Origin: Diadophis punctatus similis | Lineage: Eukaryota; Chordata; Lepidosauria; Squamata; Dipsadidae | Direction: 5' to 3' | Length of the DNA: 64,000 nt | Assembly: GCA_023053685.1 (NCBI GenBank) | Contig: JALIGW010000032.1 | Location: 5,535,288-5,599,287, forward strand | In this document: piece by piece, positions 1-51,800 of the stretch | Position numbering within the stretch: the first letter of the stretch is position 1 | How the letters are laid out: each line of letters starts with the position of its first letter | Translations under genes and position numbers: made by a program | Notes under the pieces: model-generated | Told to the model about the DNA's origin: nothing | Databases searched by the model: none | Seen by the model: the letters and a program-made list of their open reading frames with translations, nothing else

Positions 1-3544
<3,544 letters not shown>

Positions 3545-3545
3545 T

Positions 3546-3668
3546 TTTAGATTTTCAGAAAAAGGTTGGACAGCCATTTGTCCAGGGTGGACTAAGGATT
3601 CCTGCCTTGGGCAGGGGGTTGGACTAGAAGACCTCGAGGGCCCCTTCCAGACCTAGGAGTCTATGTTC
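3546..3668 (+). mobile_element. CR1 LINE 3'-end fragment
   Basis: This stretch matches the 3' end shared by all CR1 copies here: GGTTGGACAGCCATTTGTC, then the GGGGTTGGACTAGAAGACC block and a short A/T terminus. It abuts the GATA array directly. Confidence 0.85.
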
Positions 3669-39922: not shown

Positions 39923-39959
<37 letters not shown>

Positions 39960-39992
39960 CATTTTTTTTGCTGATAAATTAAAATAAAGGGA

Positions 39993-40039
39993 GACTATTA
40001 TAGATCTATTTCGAGCTATTTTGCTCTCATCAGATAGCC
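39993..40039 (-). ncRNA. Hammerhead ribozyme, canonical type I
   Basis: All parts are present, read on the minus strand. Stem I 5' strand GGCTAT (40039-40034); core CTGATGA (40033-40027); stem II GAGC/GCTC with loop AAAATA (40026-40013); GAAA (40012-40009); stem III ATAG/CTAT starting at the last A of GAAA; then H17 = A at 39999 with predicted cleavage between 39999 and 39998; stem I 3' strand ATAGTC (39998-39993). Stem I pairs over 6 bp with one G-U. The invariant CUGANGA, GAA and the A15.1-U16.1 pair are intact. The cleavage triplet is AUA, allowed under the NUH rule though less common than GUC. Confidence 0.8.
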
Positions 40040-40044
40040 ATACT

Positions 40045-40110
40045 CGTAGTGGGATTTGAACCTGGGCAGTCTGCTTATAAGGCAGAAGTGTTAACCTCTA
40101 GGCCAGGTTC
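40045..40110 (-). ncRNA. tRNA-like sequence with pol III boxes
   Basis: A box TGGCCTAGAGG (40105-40095), B box GGTTCAAATCC (40062-40052), 32 nt apart. A perfect anticodon arm TCTGC-CTTATAA-GCAGA (40086-40070) presents TAT, as in an Ile tRNA. The acceptor arms do not pair and the T stem is partly broken, so it is a tRNA-derived promoter rather than a working tRNA gene. Confidence 0.7.
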
Positions 40111-40458
40111 TCTTCCCTATCAGCTCTTCACCAGGAAAGGGTTATATATGTTTTTTCTGTTGAGTATATATATATACAATAGTACAAGCATGAATAAGAG
40201 TATAAGAGGTATGAATATATGGGTAAATTAGGACAGGAATGGTAGGCACAATTGTGCGCTTATGCACGCCCCTTACCGACCTCTTAGGAATGGCGTGAGG
40301 TCGATTGTAGAACATCCTTCCCCCAGGAGTGGGGAGGGAATGGATTTTGCAGTATTCTTCCCCTGCCACGCCCACCAAGCCATGGCCACCAAGCCACACC
40401 ACGCCCACCAAGCCACGCCCACAGAACCGGTAGTAAAATTTTTTGGATTTCACCACTG

Positions 40459-42210: not shown

Positions 42211-42676
42211 AGTAGCTGATTTGCATACGTTTCTCTGGTTGTTTGCGCCTGACACTTCCTTCCTTCTTGAGAATCCAAAACCTTGAGTTTGCTTTTGTTT
42301 TTCTGCCCTCTTCATATAAGTTTTTGAAATCATGCTTCAGTTTCTAAATAGCTATGTCACTCCAAGATTTGAGCTGGTGCAAGTTAAGCCAAAACTTTGC
42401 AACACACCTTAGCCCCCCCCCCTGCAAATTGCTGGTTGTGCAGTTACAGAAGAGCTGAGTTGATTTGATCTTGCAAGCTTAGGCCTTAATAGTTATTAAA
42501 GCTCTCCAGAAACTCACAGCTACTAGATCAAAGTGGCTTACAAGAATACCTCAAGTACTTTGCACATTAATTAAGATAAATGTGACATACCAGCTGCCAA
42601 ATAGCTCAGATCTGAAATTCTTGCAGCACACTTTAGAGGAGACGGCAAGCTCAGAGTTTGCAAGCATAGCAGAATA
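42211..42676. other. Sequence upstream of the L2 frame
   Basis: It could include the 5' UTR of the L2 element, but the second L2 copy is truncated before this point, so the 5' boundary cannot be set from this window. Confidence 0.4.
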
Positions 42677-45600
42677 ATGAAGATTGGGTCTCTACCCCCC
42701 TCTGCTGAGTGTGTAAACAGAAGCGGAGGGGGGTTCCAGTCCTCCCCCAGGCTCAGTATGACTGGGATGCATGGCCTGCTGGGAGAGAGGGGGACCAGTG
42801 GGGGAGAGGAGGGGATCTCTGGTGTGAGGGGGGACGGGAGTATTAAGGTCATAACAGGGAGAGGTAGGTATGGCGGGAGCAGGGGGGTAGGCCGCTCTCG
42901 GGGAACGAGAATTCGCTATCTTCAAGCGATTCCTTGTTCTGGCCCCTCTGGTTTGGTTCCATCTAGCTCAGCCCGAGTACCTGGTAACCAGGGATGTCAG
43001 GGCCCTGGGCTCAAGCTGCTGCTGTTGAATGCCAGGTCGATTACTAACAAGGCCCCCCTTGTACGGGATTTAATCCTGGAAGAGGGGGCGGACCTGGCAT
43101 GTATTACTGAGACCTGGCTAGGCCAGGAGGGGGGGGTTCCCCTCTCCGAGATGTGCCCGGACGGGTTCTCAGTTCAGCATCAGCCGCGACCCCAGGGAAG
43201 GGGTGGAGGAGTGGCAATTATAGCTCGCCAGAACCTAAATCCTCGAAGGAGCCCTGCCCCGGAGATTGTTGGGTGTGAGACGCTCCTTCTGAAGCTGGAC
43301 TTAGGGGTTCAGGTGGGCCTTCTGCTAACGTACTTGCCTCCTAGCTGCGTTGCAAAGGCCCTGCCTGTTCTGCTCGAGGCGGTAGCAGGGCTGGCGATTG
43401 AGTTCCCCAGGTTGATGGTGCTGGGGGACTTCAACCTGCCATCGCCCGGTGAAACCTCAGAGGCAGTCCAGGAGTTCATGGCTTCCATGACAACCATGGA
43501 CCTGACCCAAGTAGTTCAGGGTCCGACTCATGAGGGAGGTCACACGCTTGACCTTGTGTTTCTCTCGGGGCAGTGGAGAGATGATCTGAGGCTGAGGGGT
43601 TTAGTCACAGTACCCTTGTCGTGGTCAGATCATTTCCTTCTGAGGTTGGATTTCATGGCGCCACTCCTCCACCGCAAGGAGGCGGGACCGATTAAGTGGT
43701 TCCGCCCCAGGCGCCTAATGGAATCCGAAGGATTTCAGAGGGAACTTGGGGAAATACCGGACTCCCTGGTACACGATTCATCTGAGGCTCTAGTGACTGC
43801 CTGGAATCAGGCGGCAACAGGGGCTTTAGATCGGATTGCGCCTTTGCGGCCTCTCCGTGGCAGCGGATCCCGGAGGGCTCCTTGGTTTACTGAGGAGCTC
43901 CGGGAGATGAAGCGCCTAAAGAGACGCCTAGAGCGACGATGGAGAGCCAGTAAAGCTGAGTCTGACCGGACACTTTTAAGAACTTGCATTAAGTCTTACT
44001 TAGTGGCGATACGGGCGGCAAAATGTGCGCATTTTTCCGCCCTTATTGCGTCCGCCGACTCCCGCCCAGCCGCCCTGTTTAGGGTGACGCGCTCCCTCCT
44101 CGCAAAGGGGGGGGGCGAAGAACCCTTGCAGGGTAGAGCTGAGGAATTTTCCCAGTTCCTGGCGGATAAAATCACTCAGATTCGGACAGACCTGGACTCC
44201 ATTTGGACAGGGCAGGCCGAGATGACAGGGGCGAGTCTTAGTCCTGTTATTTGGGAGGAGTTTGAGCCTATCACTCCTGAGGATGTGGACAAGGCCATAG
44301 GAGCGATGAGCGCCTCCACTTGTTTATTGGACCCGTGTCCCTCCTGGCTGGTTTCGGCCAGCAGGGAGGTGACACGCGGCTGGCTCCAGGCTGTTGTGAT
44401 CGCATCTTTGAGAGAGGGGTCCGTCCCGCAGCCCTTAAAAGCTGCGGTGGTGAGGCCCCTCCTCAAGAAGCCTTCCCTGGACCCAGCGGATTTAAAGAAC
44501 TTCCGTGCAGTCTCCAACTTACCCTTCTTGGGTAAAGTTGTAGAGAAAGTGGTGTCGCTCCAACTCCTGCGGCTATTGGAGGATACTGATTATCTGGATC
44601 CCTTTCAATCGGGTTTCAGGCGCGGCTACAGTACGGAGACTGCTTTGGTCGCACTGATGGATGATCTCTGGCGAGCACGGGATGGGGGTCATTCCTCCAT
44701 CCTGGTGTTACTTGACCTCTCAGCGGCTTTCGATACCATCGACCATGGTATCCTTCTGCGTCGTCTTGGGGAGGTGGGAGTGGGAGGCACTGTTTTACGG
44801 TGGTTCTCCTCCTACCTCTCTGACAGGACGCAGTCGGTGTTGACAGGAGGGCAGAGGTCGGCCCCTAGGCCCCTGGTTTGCGGGGTTCCACAGGGTTCGG
44901 TCCTCTCGCCCATCCTGTTTAACATTTACATGAAACCGCTGGGTGAGATCATCCGACGACACGGGGTGAGGTATCAGCAGTATGCTGACGATACCCAGTT
45001 GTACATCTCCACCCCGTGTCAGTTCAGTGAAGCAGTTGATGTAATGTGCCGCTGCCTGGACGATGTGAGGGTCTGGATGGGAGTGAACAGACTCAGGCTC
45101 AACCCAGACAAGACTGAGTGGCTCTGGATTTTGCCTCCCAAGGATTATGTCGACTGTCCCTCCCTGGTTCTCGGGGGAGAAAAATTGACTCCCTCGGAAC
45201 AGGTCCGCAATTTGGGTGTCCTCCTAGATCCACAGCTAAAATTGGAGCAACATCTTTCAGCTGTGGCTAGGGGGACCTTTGCACAGATTCGTCTTGTGCA
45301 CCAATTGCGACCTTACTTGGAGAGGGAGGCTTTGCTCACAGTCACTCATGCCCTTGTCACCTCACGGCTAGACTACTGTAACGCGCTCTACATGGGGCTA
45401 CCCTCAAAGAGCATCCGGAGACTCCAACTGGTACAGAATGCAGCTGCGCGAGCTGTAGTGGGTGTACCGAGATACACCCACGTAACACCTATTCTTCGCC
45501 AGCTGCATTGGCTGCCAATTAGTCTCCGGTCGCAATTTAAGGTGTTGGTCGTTACCTTTAAAGCCCTACATGGCTCAGGGCCAGGTTACCTTCGGGACCG

Positions 45601-45823
45601 CATCCTACCACATACCTCCCTACGACCGGTTAGGTCCCATAGAGAGGGCCTCCTCCGGGTCCCATCGGCCAAACAATGTCGGTTGGCGGGGCCACGGGGG
45701 AGGGCCTTCTCTGTGGGAGCCCCGTCCCTCTGGAACCAACTCCCACCAGAGATCCGGACTATCCCCACCCTGCTGGCCTTCCGTAAAGCCATAAAAACTT
45801 GGCTCTTCCGGCAGGCGGGGTGA
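42677..45823 (+). CDS. L2-clade LINE ORF2: AP endonuclease and reverse transcriptase
   Basis: An uninterrupted 1048-codon frame starting at ATG 42677. The endonuclease spans about residues 112-325: LLNARS (N118), ITETWLG (E145), RGGGVAI, VLGDFNLP (D251), GGHTLDLVF and SWSDHFLL (D318, H319). The reverse transcriptase spans about 595-860: LKNFRAVSNLPFLGKVVEKV, DPFQSGFRRGYSTETAL, LLDLSAAFDTIDHG (D680), CGVPQGSVLSPILFN and YADD (769-772), LNPDKTEWLWI. The C-terminal part holds TSRLDYCNALYMGLPSKS and LQLVQNAAARAV, typical of L2/CR1-superfamily elements. The product would nick DNA and reverse-transcribe its own RNA at the nick. All catalytic residues I can check are present. The true start is uncertain: homology to the second copy begins near residue 82, and residues 1-80 are low-complexity. 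No ORF1 partner was seen upstream. Confidence 0.9.
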   Translation: MKIGSLPPSAECVNRSGGGFQSSPRLSMTGMHGLLGERGTSGGEEGISGVRGDGSIKVITGRGRYGGSRGVGRSRGTRIRYLQAIPCSGPSGLVPSSSARVPGNQGCQGPGLKLLLLNARSITNKAPLVRDLILEEGADLACITETWLGQEGGVPLSEMCPDGFSVQHQPRPQGRGGGVAIIARQNLNPRRSPAPEIVGCETLLLKLDLGVQVGLLLTYLPPSCVAKALPVLLEAVAGLAIEFPRLMVLGDFNLPSPGETSEAVQEFMASMTTMDLTQVVQGPTHEGGHTLDLVFLSGQWRDDLRLRGLVTVPLSWSDHFLLRLDFMAPLLHRKEAGPIKWFRPRRLMESEGFQRELGEIPDSLVHDSSEALVTAWNQAATGALDRIAPLRPLRGSGSRRAPWFTEELREMKRLKRRLERRWRASKAESDRTLLRTCIKSYLVAIRAAKCAHFSALIASADSRPAALFRVTRSLLAKGGGEEPLQGRAEEFSQFLADKITQIRTDLDSIWTGQAEMTGASLSPVIWEEFEPITPEDVDKAIGAMSASTCLLDPCPSWLVSASREVTRGWLQAVVIASLREGSVPQPLKAAVVRPLLKKPSLDPADLKNFRAVSNLPFLGKVVEKVVSLQLLRLLEDTDYLDPFQSGFRRGYSTETALVALMDDLWRARDGGHSSILVLLDLSAAFDTIDHGILLRRLGEVGVGGTVLRWFSSYLSDRTQSVLTGGQRSAPRPLVCGVPQGSVLSPILFNIYMKPLGEIIRRHGVRYQQYADDTQLYISTPCQFSEAVDVMCRCLDDVRVWMGVNRLRLNPDKTEWLWILPPKDYVDCPSLVLGGEKLTPSEQVRNLGVLLDPQLKLEQHLSAVARGTFAQIRLVHQLRPYLEREALLTVTHALVTSRLDYCNALYMGLPSKSIRRLQLVQNAAARAVVGVPRYTHVTPILRQLHWLPISLRSQFKVLVVTFKALHGSGPGYLRDRILPHTSLRPVRSHREGLLRVPSAKQCRLAGPRGRAFSVGAPSLWNQLPPEIRTIPTLLAFRKAIKTWLFRQAG

Positions 45824-48617: not shown

Positions 48618-48838
48618 AGAGACTAGGCAGTCACTTATCTGAAATAGTATAGGTTCTCCTGCTTGAGCAGGGGACTGGACTATTTATTTATTTATTTTAG
48701 TGTTCTTATATGCCACCCTACTCCCTGGGGACTCAAGAAGACCCCCAAGGTCCCTTCCAGCTTCTATTCTATTCTATTCTATTCTATTCTATTCTATTCT
48801 ATTCTATTCTATTCTATTCTATTCTATTCTATTCTGTG
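48618..48838 (+). mobile_element. CR1 3' end, nested L2 tail, (ATTCT)n
   Basis: The CR1 block GGGGACTGGACT is cut at about 48680 by a 56-bp L2 3' end in minus orientation ((ATTT)n, TATGCCACCCTACTCCCTGG). CR1 resumes AGAAGACCCCCAAGGTCCC and ends in (ATTCT)n at 48764-48835. Confidence 0.85.
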
Positions 48839-51800
48839 TACAAGCGATCCCTTGTTCCGGCCCCTCCAATGTGGTTCCATCTTTCTCATTCCGGGTACCT
48901 GGTAACCAGGTTGTTCAGGGCCCTGGGCTCAGGATGCTGCTGCTTAATGCCAGGTCAATCACCAACAAAGCCCCCCTGATACGTGATTTAATCACAGAAG
49001 AGGGGGCTGACCTGGTTTGTGTAACTGAGACCTGGCTGGGCCTGGAGGGGGGAGTAGCTCTCTCCGAGATATGCCCAGATGGGTTCTCAGTGCAGCATCA
49101 TCCCCGACCCCAGGGAAGGGGGGGAGGAGTGGCAATAATAACACGCGGAAACCTGCATCCTCGTAGGATCCCTGCCCCGGAGATTGTTGGGTGTGAGACG
49201 CTCCTTCTGAAGTTGGACTTAGGGGTACAGGTGGGCCTTTTCTTAACGTACCTGCCTCCCAGCTACGTAAGTAAGGCCCTGCCTGAGCTGCTCGAGGCAG
49301 TAGCCGGCTTGGCAGTTGAGTTCCCCAGGCTTATGGTGCTGGGGGACTTCAACTTGCCTTCTGCTGGCGAAACCTCTGGGATAGCTCAGGAGTTCATGGA
49401 TTCCATGACAACCATGGACCTGACCCAAGTAATCCAGGGTCTGACTCATGAGGGTGGTCACACGCTCGACCTAGTGTTTCTTTCGGGGCAGTGGAGAGAT
49501 GATCTGAAGATAAGGGACATAGTCATCACCCCTCTGTCATGGTCAGATCATTTCCTACTGAGGTTGGATTTCGCAGCCCCACTCCTCCCCTGCAGGGAGG
49601 CGGGACCGACTAGGTGGTTCCGCCCCAGGCGCCTAATGGAGCCGGAAGGATTCCAGAGGGAACTTGGGGAAATACCTGAAACCCTGGTACACAATTCGGC
49701 TGACTCCCTGGTGGCTGCTTGGAACACCGCAGCATCAGGGGCGTTAGACCGAATTGCGCCTAAGCGACCTCTCCGTGGCAGTGGATCCCGGAAAGCTCCC
49801 TGGTTTACCGAGGAGCTCCGGGAGATGAAACGCCAGAAGAGACGTCTAGAGCGCCGCTGGAGAGCCAGCAAAACCGAGTCTGACCGAACACTATTAAGAA
49901 TTTACATCAGATCTTATTTAGTGGCGATAAGGGCGGCAAAACGATCCTATTTTTCCGCTCTTATTGCGTCCGCAGATTCTCGCCCAGCCGCCTTGTTTAG
50001 GGTGACTCTCTCCCTCCTTGCTAAAGGGGGGAGCGAGGAACACTTACAAGGCAGAGCTGAGGAATTCGCTGAGTTTCTGTCGGATAAAGTCGCTCAGATT
50101 CGGTCGAACCTGGACTCTGGCTGGGCAGAGTCCATAGAGTTGACAGGGGCAAGTCTTAGTCCACCGTTATGGGAAGAGTTTGGGCCTGTTTCTCCCGAAG
50201 ATGTGGACAGAGCTGTGGGGGCGATGGGTACCTCCACCTGTTTATTGGACCCGTGCCCCTCCTGGTTGGTCTCAGCCAGTAGAGTGGTGGCACGCGGCTG
50301 GATCCAGGTGGTGGTCACCGCTTCTTTGAGGGAGGGATCCGTACCGCAGTAGTTAAAAGCTGCGGTAGTGGGACCCCTCCTGAAGAAGCCTTCCCTGGAT
50401 CCAGCTGATTTGAAGAACTATCGTCCGGTCTCCAACTTACCCTTTTGGGGGAAAGTTGCGGAGAAGGTGGTGGTTACTCAGCTTCTGCAGCTTCTGGATG
50501 AAACAGATCATCTAGATCCTTATCAGTCGGGCTTCAGGTGCGGCTACAGTACAGAAACTGCCTTGGTCGCCCTGATGGATGATCTCTGGCGGGCCCGGGA
50601 TGGGGAAAATTCCTCCATCCTGGTGCTACTTGACCTCTCAGCGGCTTTCGATACCATCAACATGGTATCCTTCTGCATCGTCTCGGTGAGTTGGGGGTGG
50701 GAGGCACCGTTTTGCGGTGGTTCTCCTCTTATCTCGCCGATAGGATGCAGTCGGTGTTAGCAGAAGGACAGAGATCGTCCCCTAGGCCCCTATCATGTGG
50801 GGTGCCTCAGGGGTCGGTTCTCTCACCCATCCTGTTTAACATTTACATGAAACCGCTGGGGGAGATCATCCGCAGACATGGGGTGTGTTTCCACCAGTAC
50901 GCTGATGACACCCAGCTGTACATCACCACCCCGTCTGATTTCAGGGAGGCAGTTGATGTAATGTGCCGGTGCCTGGACGACGTTAGGATCTGGATGGGGA
51001 GGAACAGACTCAGACTTAATCCCGACAAGACTGAGTGGCTTTGGATACTGCCTCCTAAGGACTATGTCAACTGCCCCTCCTTGGTGTTCGAGGGAGCAAA
51101 ACTGACTCCCTCGGATCAGGTCCGCAACTTGGGGGTTCTCCTAGATCCACAGCTAAAATTGGATCACCATCTTTCTGCTGTGGCTAGGGGGGCCTTTGCA
51201 CAGGTTTGCCTGGTGCACCAGTTGCGGCCATACTTGGAGAAGGAGGCTCTACTCACGGTCACTCATGCCCTTGTCACCTCGCGCTTGGACTACTGCAACG
51301 CGCTCTACATGGGGCTACCCTTGAAGAGTATCCGGAGACTTCAGCTGGTGCAAAATGCGGCTGCGCGTGCTGTGGTGGGTGTGCCAAGGTACACCCACGT
51401 GACACCGATACTCCGCCAGCTGCATTGGTTGCCCATCGGTCTCCGGGTCCAATTCAAGGTGTTGATCACCATCTTTAAAGCCCTTCATGGCTTAGGACCA
51501 GGTTATCTCCGGGACCGCATTCTGCCTCATACTTCCCTTCGACCTGTTAGGGCCCACAGAGTTGGCCTCCTCCAGGTCCCGTCGGCCAAGCAATGCCGGC
51601 TGGCGGGCCCTAGGGGGAGGGCCTTCTCTGTGGCTGGCCCCGTGCTCTGGAACCAACTCCCCCCAGAGACCCGAACTATCCCCACTCTGCTGGCCTTCCG
51701 AAAAGCTGTCAAGACATGGCTTTTCCTGCAGGCTGGGGGTAGAGCCTAAACCACTCAAGCTCACCCCAAGTATGTATGGTTATTGAATGGGTATTGGATG

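Follow-up and report, generated by a model that had tools for sequence, protein, structure and literature searches.

We identified, on the minus strand of a 64,000-nt stretch of the Diadophis punctatus similis genome (the window, meaning this whole stretch), a copy of a short interspersed element (SINE) with a type I hammerhead motif downstream of a tRNA-like head. The sequences suggest that this copy is a non-autonomous, tRNA-headed hammerhead SINE that was probably mobilized by a Poseidon-type Penelope-like element (PLE) of the same genome.

All parts of the copy named in a preliminary description of this DNA, including the minus-strand A box, the TAT anticodon arm, the B box, and the type I hammerhead, were recovered from the sequence (Table 1), and the predicted cut falls at the position given there, with A 39999 as H17. 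The interval first assigned to the element, 39958-40137, lies within it but is too short, as the copy runs from about 40165 to about 39955. No tRNA was found in the window copy by ARAGORN, nor by Rfam up to E 10 in a search of 351 bases; the head is called tRNA-like because of its A and B boxes and its anticodon arm, and SINE heads are usually missed by tRNA finders. An extended hammerhead, as opposed to a minimal one, is suggested by the AAAATA loop of helix II and by the GGG/CCC pairing on the far side of a UAU/U internal loop. If the TTTT downstream of the hammerhead acts as a pol III terminator, which is possible, productive transcripts would have to pass it.

Table 1. Features of the window copy, numbered from the first base of the window
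Feature	Position	Strand	Basis or remark
Copy of the SINE (retrozyme-like) unit	39955..40165	-	Unit 98 to about 311 of 316, 5'-truncated; mapped to unit
(TA)n at 5' junction, AT-rich target	40166..40176	.	Sequence; like flanks in many copies
A box TGGCCTAGAGG, tRNA-like pol III promoter	40105-40095	-	Sequence; TGGCYTARWGG in 7/7 aligned subfamily rows
Anticodon arm TCTGC-CTTATAA-GCAGA	40086-40070	-	TAT in window copy; TAC in most sister copies displayed
B box GGTTCAAATCC	40062-40052	-	Sequence; GGTTCAAWTCC in 7/7 aligned subfamily rows
Type I hammerhead, predicted cut 39999/39998	39993-40039	-	Sequence, Rfam placement, descriptor, related genomic cores
Hammerhead helix I	GGCTAT 40039-40034 with ATAGTC 39998-39993	-	One G-U pair
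Hammerhead core CTGATGA	40033-40027	-	Sequence
Hammerhead helix II GAGC/GCTC, loop AAAATA	inside 39993-40039	-	Sequence
Hammerhead GAAA	40012-40009	-	Sequence
Palindromic helix III ATAGATCTAT	40009-40000	-	Pairing between two hammerheads conceivable
Extended helix I, outer GGG/CCC across UAU/U internal loop	39989..40045	-	Most copies; window copy has GAG
TTTT, possible pol III terminator	39981-39984	-	Copies continue past TTTT
TGTTACA, start of AC-rich stretch	39955..39961	-	Apparent RT start of most mapped copies
(CA)n at 3' junction	39929..39956	.	Sequence

The window copy has the conserved core and the three helices of a type I hammerhead, and a strict descriptor of core plus helices matched once in the 64-kb window and once in 1,500 simulated windows of 64 kb. 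The best Rfam match was Hammerhead_1 (RF00163) at exactly 39993-40039 (E 7e-4, search of 351 bases), which bears out the earlier type I assignment in its placement, but the 24.7 bits obtained, like the 26.6 bits of the commonest sister form (10 loci), lie below the gathering score of 34, a threshold that is a curator's setting and no structural feature. A search of the whole 64-kb window returned no match at any gathering score. The low score would suit a resemblance arising by chance, a reading that we regard as practically negligible given the simulated windows, the conservation across subfamilies described below, and the 5,641 places in the 1.78-Gb host genome at which the 35-base hammerhead core was matched with up to 3 mismatches (2,782 + 2,859, vs 0 + 0 for the reversed control). 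The occurrence of a hammerhead directly downstream of a tRNA-like head in the window is well beyond chance.

Two other hammerheads, L100 (C217:84431194-84431235) and L101 (C112:200809644-200809686), scored 40.2 and 36.8 bits, above the Rfam gathering score; they come from the best 74 of 208,841 candidates and are possibly conserved intronic hammerheads of amniotes, the introns of which carry such motifs according to a review (PMC6155905). Elsewhere in the window, positions 79-3656 are occupied by an extended tandem stretch rich in tetranucleotides, with long open frames of low complexity as a result, and long open frames resembling LINE (CR1-type) proteins are present at 42605-45823 and 48667-51749. 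Two scans of viral contigs for other carriers of the element returned none.

The genomic cores, the pol III-type head, and the conserved hammerhead together indicate a repeated SINE-like retroposon, as had been proposed. The first genome search gave 3,290 first-look candidates, the best 40 of which were scored, with the longer matches being 91-97% identical. A sample of 39 + 30 loci, with 11 repeats, left 58 unique loci, or 59 with the window copy. The repeating unit, seeded from one copy in L040, is 316 bp long and comprises, in order, a leader with a predicted strong hairpin, the tRNA-like head, the hammerhead (unit 218-274, with the cut after unit 264), TTTT, and the AC-rich stretch; neither this unit nor the connection to a resident PLE had been recognized in the preliminary description. 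The 59 loci resolved into 77 segments, 18 of which exceed 316 bp and cross the unit junction (longest, 548), which points to dimeric or circular RNA. Flanks of (TA)n, (CA)n, or (TG)n were frequent, and inverted copies, arranged head-to-head or tail-to-tail, were found at L020, L021, L042, L037, and L038. The leader hairpin (GCCTGGATGGCCCCAGGAGGGGCCGAAAGGC, about unit 27-58) occurs in longer copies and is missing from the 5'-truncated window copy; this predicted hairpin, followed by GAAA, looks faintly like a broken second hammerhead.

The window copy and the 7 subfamily rows are short and non-coding, with internal pol III promoter boxes that would class them as SINEs, and the family is dispersed, with a common 3' end and scattered 5' truncations. 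As a tandem hammerhead unit without an open reading frame, the 316-bp unit also falls within the 170-400 nt of metazoan retrozymes. It is PLE-like in that RT starts internally, the tails vary, copies occur both in tandem and inverted, and the targets are AT-rich. It encodes no PLE RT, with or without GIY-YIG, and 316 bp is too small for one, so the SINE acts like a PLE but is none.

Across subfamilies, the hammerhead was the best-conserved segment. Mismatches to the unit in four divergent copies (L064, L074, L088, and L081) amounted to 7 of 230 positions in the hammerhead, 145 of 821 in the leader plus head, and 14 of 124 in the tail (hammerhead vs leader plus head, p 5e-10; 9e-8 if L088, of one subfamily with L064, is omitted). 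These copies arrived as neighbors of other matches or with the PLE and were not ranked by hammerhead similarity; L059, whose second copy stops inside the hammerhead, and L072, found by the hammerhead query, were left out. The tRNA head or leader was the most changed part of the divergent copies, with the A and B boxes kept. Conservation of the core among copies, which the preliminary description had asked for, was further seen in 50 aligned hammerheads of young copies, 44 with an intact CTGANGA...GAAA core and 6 with a changed G8 or G12, the latter being as expected of dead copies and equally of a lack of constraint after insertion. The best reading of these patterns is that the hammerhead would be maintained by selection on source copies.

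A conventional tRNA SINE dependent on a LINE (CR1, L2, or Bov-B), with an accidental hammerhead-like body, would likewise have a tRNA head, a non-coding sequence, thousands of copies, and a simple-repeat tail. We consider this origin very improbable, as the most conserved part is the hammerhead itself, as tandem read-through, tail-to-tail pairs, and a PLE chimera were found, and as the tails found named for Squam1-3 in PMC10702118 do not include (CA)n/(TA)n.

Boundaries shared among copies in the host genome, as anticipated for a mobile element, were found on the 3' side. In 69 of 77 segments, the 3' end fell at unit 299-316/1-12, which is 35-64 nt beyond the cut site, in a zone consisting of the AC-rich stretch and then simple repeats; ends recorded as unit 1-12 are imprecise by several bases because simple repeats prolong the AC-rich end. 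The remaining 8 lay at unit 56, 61, 90, 95, 106, 113, 120, and 264; just 1 of the 77 segments (L059, a copy 83% identical) stops at the cut site, which contradicts the earlier suggestion that the ribozyme defines the 3' end. There was no excess of 5' ends at the cut site, with 1 of 69 in unit 259-271; four more lay at unit 254-256, where the (TA)n flank makes the position ambiguous, and L016 could begin exactly at the cut. A second search, with a query that lacked the 5' portion, covered 30 loci and 37 segments whose 3' ends were standard; of these 37, 3 had 5' ends in unit 254-271 vs 2.1 expected, again without excess. The ribozyme was ruled out as the maker of insertion ends by the positions of both the 3' and the 5' ends.

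A tRNA-type pol III start is expected about 15-17 nt upstream of the A box, and 5 of the 37 5' ends in the second search lay at unit 141-143, at this distance from it (0.8 expected in 139-145, p 0.001). A pile-up at unit 94-102 in the first sample (12 of 69) was dismissed because the first query bore the 5' end of the window copy (unit 98), which favors such copies; the second search gave 3 of 37 vs 1.1 expected (p 0.09). Copies with standard 3' ends reach beyond the cut site, so their template RNA would have been uncut or religated at its 3'-most hammerhead, and if it was uncut, cleavage could harm rather than help the SINE.

A template upstream of unit 94 is required by 39 of the 69 segments with standard 3' ends, and 18 of 37 in the second search extend that far, 9 of these 37 segments being longer than 316 bp. 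Such a template could be supplied by a circle in a classical retrozyme cycle, in which multimers would be cut to 316-nt monomers, circularized by tRNA ligase, and copied round by an RT, probably that of the PLE, and the size, the type I hammerhead, the weak palindromic helix III, and the head-to-tail copies match metazoan retrozymes as described in PMC7229834 and PMC7761336. This cycle is possible but on the unlikely side, since the same copies are obtainable from dimeric linear RNA, since 5' ends cluster at the expected pol III start instead of the cut site, and since no segment exceeds 548, for which the chance under a constant drop-off rate is 0.001 (69 segments) or 0.02 (the 37 of the second search). 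The 548-nt ceiling leans toward linear, start-site-limited templates without settling the matter. Circles may possibly form from SINE RNA, with dimeric linear RNA explaining the 18 segments longer than one unit equally well.

We searched the same genome with a PLE-type RT query and obtained 139 matches among the best 139 of 1,210 candidates, many of them in 2,828-bp tandem arrays. The 2,828-bp unit contains a 951-aa open frame with an RVT_1 domain (E 1e-16) and a GIY-YIG trace below the cut-off (E 0.0096). Its two best protein matches were both from squamates, Podarcis muralis (75% over 69% of the query) and Vipera latastei (89% over 50%), and its only PDB match was 8bgj_A, an RNA-directed DNA polymerase. 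The PLE assignment was made because of the RT, the sub-threshold GIY-YIG, and the layout, which is that described for the Anolis Poseidon PLE (PMC11167929). This PLE is young and intact-looking. A GIY-YIG family search (best 150 of 685 candidates) gave two matches, one that reads as an SLX1-like exon and one weak, neither of them the source of the PLE.

A minimal hammerhead-like motif was identified at the start of the PLE open frame in 19 of 20 loci, and PLE 3' ends fell at 108 or 136-141 in 16 of 20, which agrees with the pair of internal initiation sites determined in the Anolis PLE (PMC11167929). Short inverted PLE pairs were present at C90:3922049-3922335 and five similar places, with one arm reaching to unit 141 and the other to 108, as if both strands of one break had used the two start sites. 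The arrays (L097-L099, C112:240786755-240808034, and C68:13507831-13528267) keep the 2,828-bp period, with the frame open across the unit junction, and strand changes were found inside both the C112 and the C68 array. Helix II of the hammerhead-like motif is GACGA/TCGTC or GATGA/TCATC depending on the locus (e.g., L097, L084), a two-sided change that keeps the pairing. Many contigs of about 2.4-3.0 kb, or about one PLE unit, encode PLE-type proteins and may represent collapsed tandem units or circles.

The SINE could also stem from a different PLE family, as a solo pseudo-LTR, or one with an internal deletion, that acquired tRNA-like sequence, given that PLE pseudo-LTRs are reported to bear type I hammerheads and to occur in tandem (PMC11167929, PMC7761336) and that the 316-bp unit has PLE-like ends. 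We think this improbable: the PLE family recognized among the 139 RT matches that were scored carries a minimal hammerhead and a non-coding region unrelated to the SINE, and the A and B boxes were kept in 7 of 7 aligned subfamily rows despite divergence of the head.

Mobilization of the SINE by the resident PLE is suggested by their association. PLE sequence was found in the retrieved flank of 11 of the 58 unique SINE loci, where about 0.1 would be expected from 1,323 first-look PLE 3' ends, or about 1 if that count is tenfold too low; the 64-kb window contained no PLE sequence at E 1e-5. Tail-to-tail SINE-(microsatellite)-PLE pairs, with simple repeats alone in between, were identified at five loci, namely L011 and L023 in the SINE sample and L080, L082, and L088 among the 20 PLE loci. 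At L081, 1.6 SINE units stand between two non-contiguous PLE parts, with a 6-nt overlap at one SINE/PLE joint and (TA)n filler at the other. The overlap junction would fit template switching by one reverse transcriptase, and the locus is duplicated as L082, so the two count as a single event. The SINE and the PLE use the same microsatellite type of target, and common targets alone would suffice to cluster them. By eye, the PLE start site CCTACATACAAACA is like that of the SINE, TTACACATACAGACA, and of an older SINE subfamily, TCCTACACATA. No match of the PLE hammerhead or body to the SINE was found in L097-L099, so they do not have a 3' module in common, as SINE/LINE pairs usually do, but only a similar AC-rich start. 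L032 was rejected as a PLE-SINE fusion, as a (TA)n spacer at the junction makes the two merely neighbors. In a single case, at L076:1375-1440, an inverted SINE adjoins a PLE fragment that ends at unit 46, no more than 2 nt from where the PLE's own hammerhead is predicted to cut (48).

We propose that pol III transcribes the SINE from its internal A and B boxes and that partly dimeric loci, or circles, serve as the RNA source, so that templates may exceed one unit. The PLE protein would act at broken TA/CA/TG microsatellites, where it could extend both strands, and would start reverse transcription inside the RNA, within the AC-rich stretch and some 40-52 nt 3' of the predicted hammerhead cut. 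From there, copying would run upstream across the hammerhead, left uncut, and on over the tRNA head and leader, with early drop-off or a run into a second unit. The hammerhead would most likely trim multi-unit transcripts to unit length, with two hammerheads joining by way of the palindromic helix III, and the trimmed RNA may perhaps feed circles. We hold only tentatively, and with somewhat less confidence than the retrozyme cycle as such, that this vertebrate SINE is at the same time a retrozyme, its pol III RNA being cut by dimeric hammerheads and turned into 316-nt circles that the PLE RT copies round.

If PLE-driven mobilization is true, this SINE family depends on a PLE and not on a LINE, and if the circle-copying reading is true, the machinery that moves animal retrozymes would be named. 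Three kinds of element that are usually separate, tRNA SINEs, retrozymes, and PLEs, are joined here. For the mover of animal retrozymes, a 2020 review (PMC7761336) names PLEs and Terminons merely as likely candidates and describes no motif in metazoan retrozymes that betrays their partner. Here, a hammerhead SINE and a recent, intact-looking PLE occupy one genome, insert into one type of target, end in a similar way, and are found paired tail-to-tail and once as a chimera, which makes the mover question testable with purified protein, as for the Anolis PLE. Thousands of natural hammerhead variants are, in addition, present within one reptile genome.

Among known systems, hammerhead-bearing SINE-like elements occur in Schistosoma, of which Sm-alpha carries pol III boxes. 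Sm-alpha and Sj-alpha are described as SINE-like retroposons with hammerheads (Ferbeyre 1998 and Laha 2000, cited in PMC8490949), and they resemble the snake element in their SINE-like nature, type I hammerhead, and size (335 bp for the Sm-alpha type; PMC8490949). They are from trematodes, the likeness is one of description, and the snake element adds an explicit tRNA-derived head, PLE-type ends, and a chimera.

Metazoan non-LTR retrozymes, reported at 170-400 nt with type I hammerheads and, in amphibians, dimeric action (PMC7229834), are non-coding and tandem like the SINE, and the vertebrate ones have a weak palindromic helix III as well (PMC7229834). The snake element is known from DNA copies alone. 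Plant and metazoan retrozymes seem to lack a promoter according to the 2020 review (PMC7761336), whereas the snake unit has A and B boxes; the plant retrozyme NbRZ1 was later assigned a promoter in its LTR.

Among squamate SINEs, Squam1/Sauria, Squam2, and Squam3 are tRNA-derived, with known tandem derivatives (PMC10702118, PMC7983390), and Squam3 is described with a CORE fragment and an L2-like 3' end; the snake element is set apart from Squam1-3 by description. The main text of PMC10702118 contains no mention of "ribozyme" or "Penelope," and no squamate SINE with a hammerhead was found in the literature searched, in line with the preliminary description, although a repeat catalogue may list the family by a different name. 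Hammerhead SINEs as a kind are known, and the combination of tRNA SINE, hammerhead, and PLE appears new for vertebrates within that literature.

Another close parallel is the Poseidon PLE of Anolis carolinensis, as described in PMC11167929, the open frame of which starts in stem II and in which RT can begin internally at either of two sites of an AC-rich stem-loop; it inserts at AT-rich targets with both strands cut and extended, and its hammerhead was active in vitro only with the protein, unprocessed RNA being the main substrate. Like it, the SINE has its hammerhead a short way before an internal, AC-rich site of RT initiation, ends at either of two 3' positions, goes into AT-rich targets, and shows extension on both strands; it differs in having no open reading frame and an extended rather than minimal hammerhead.
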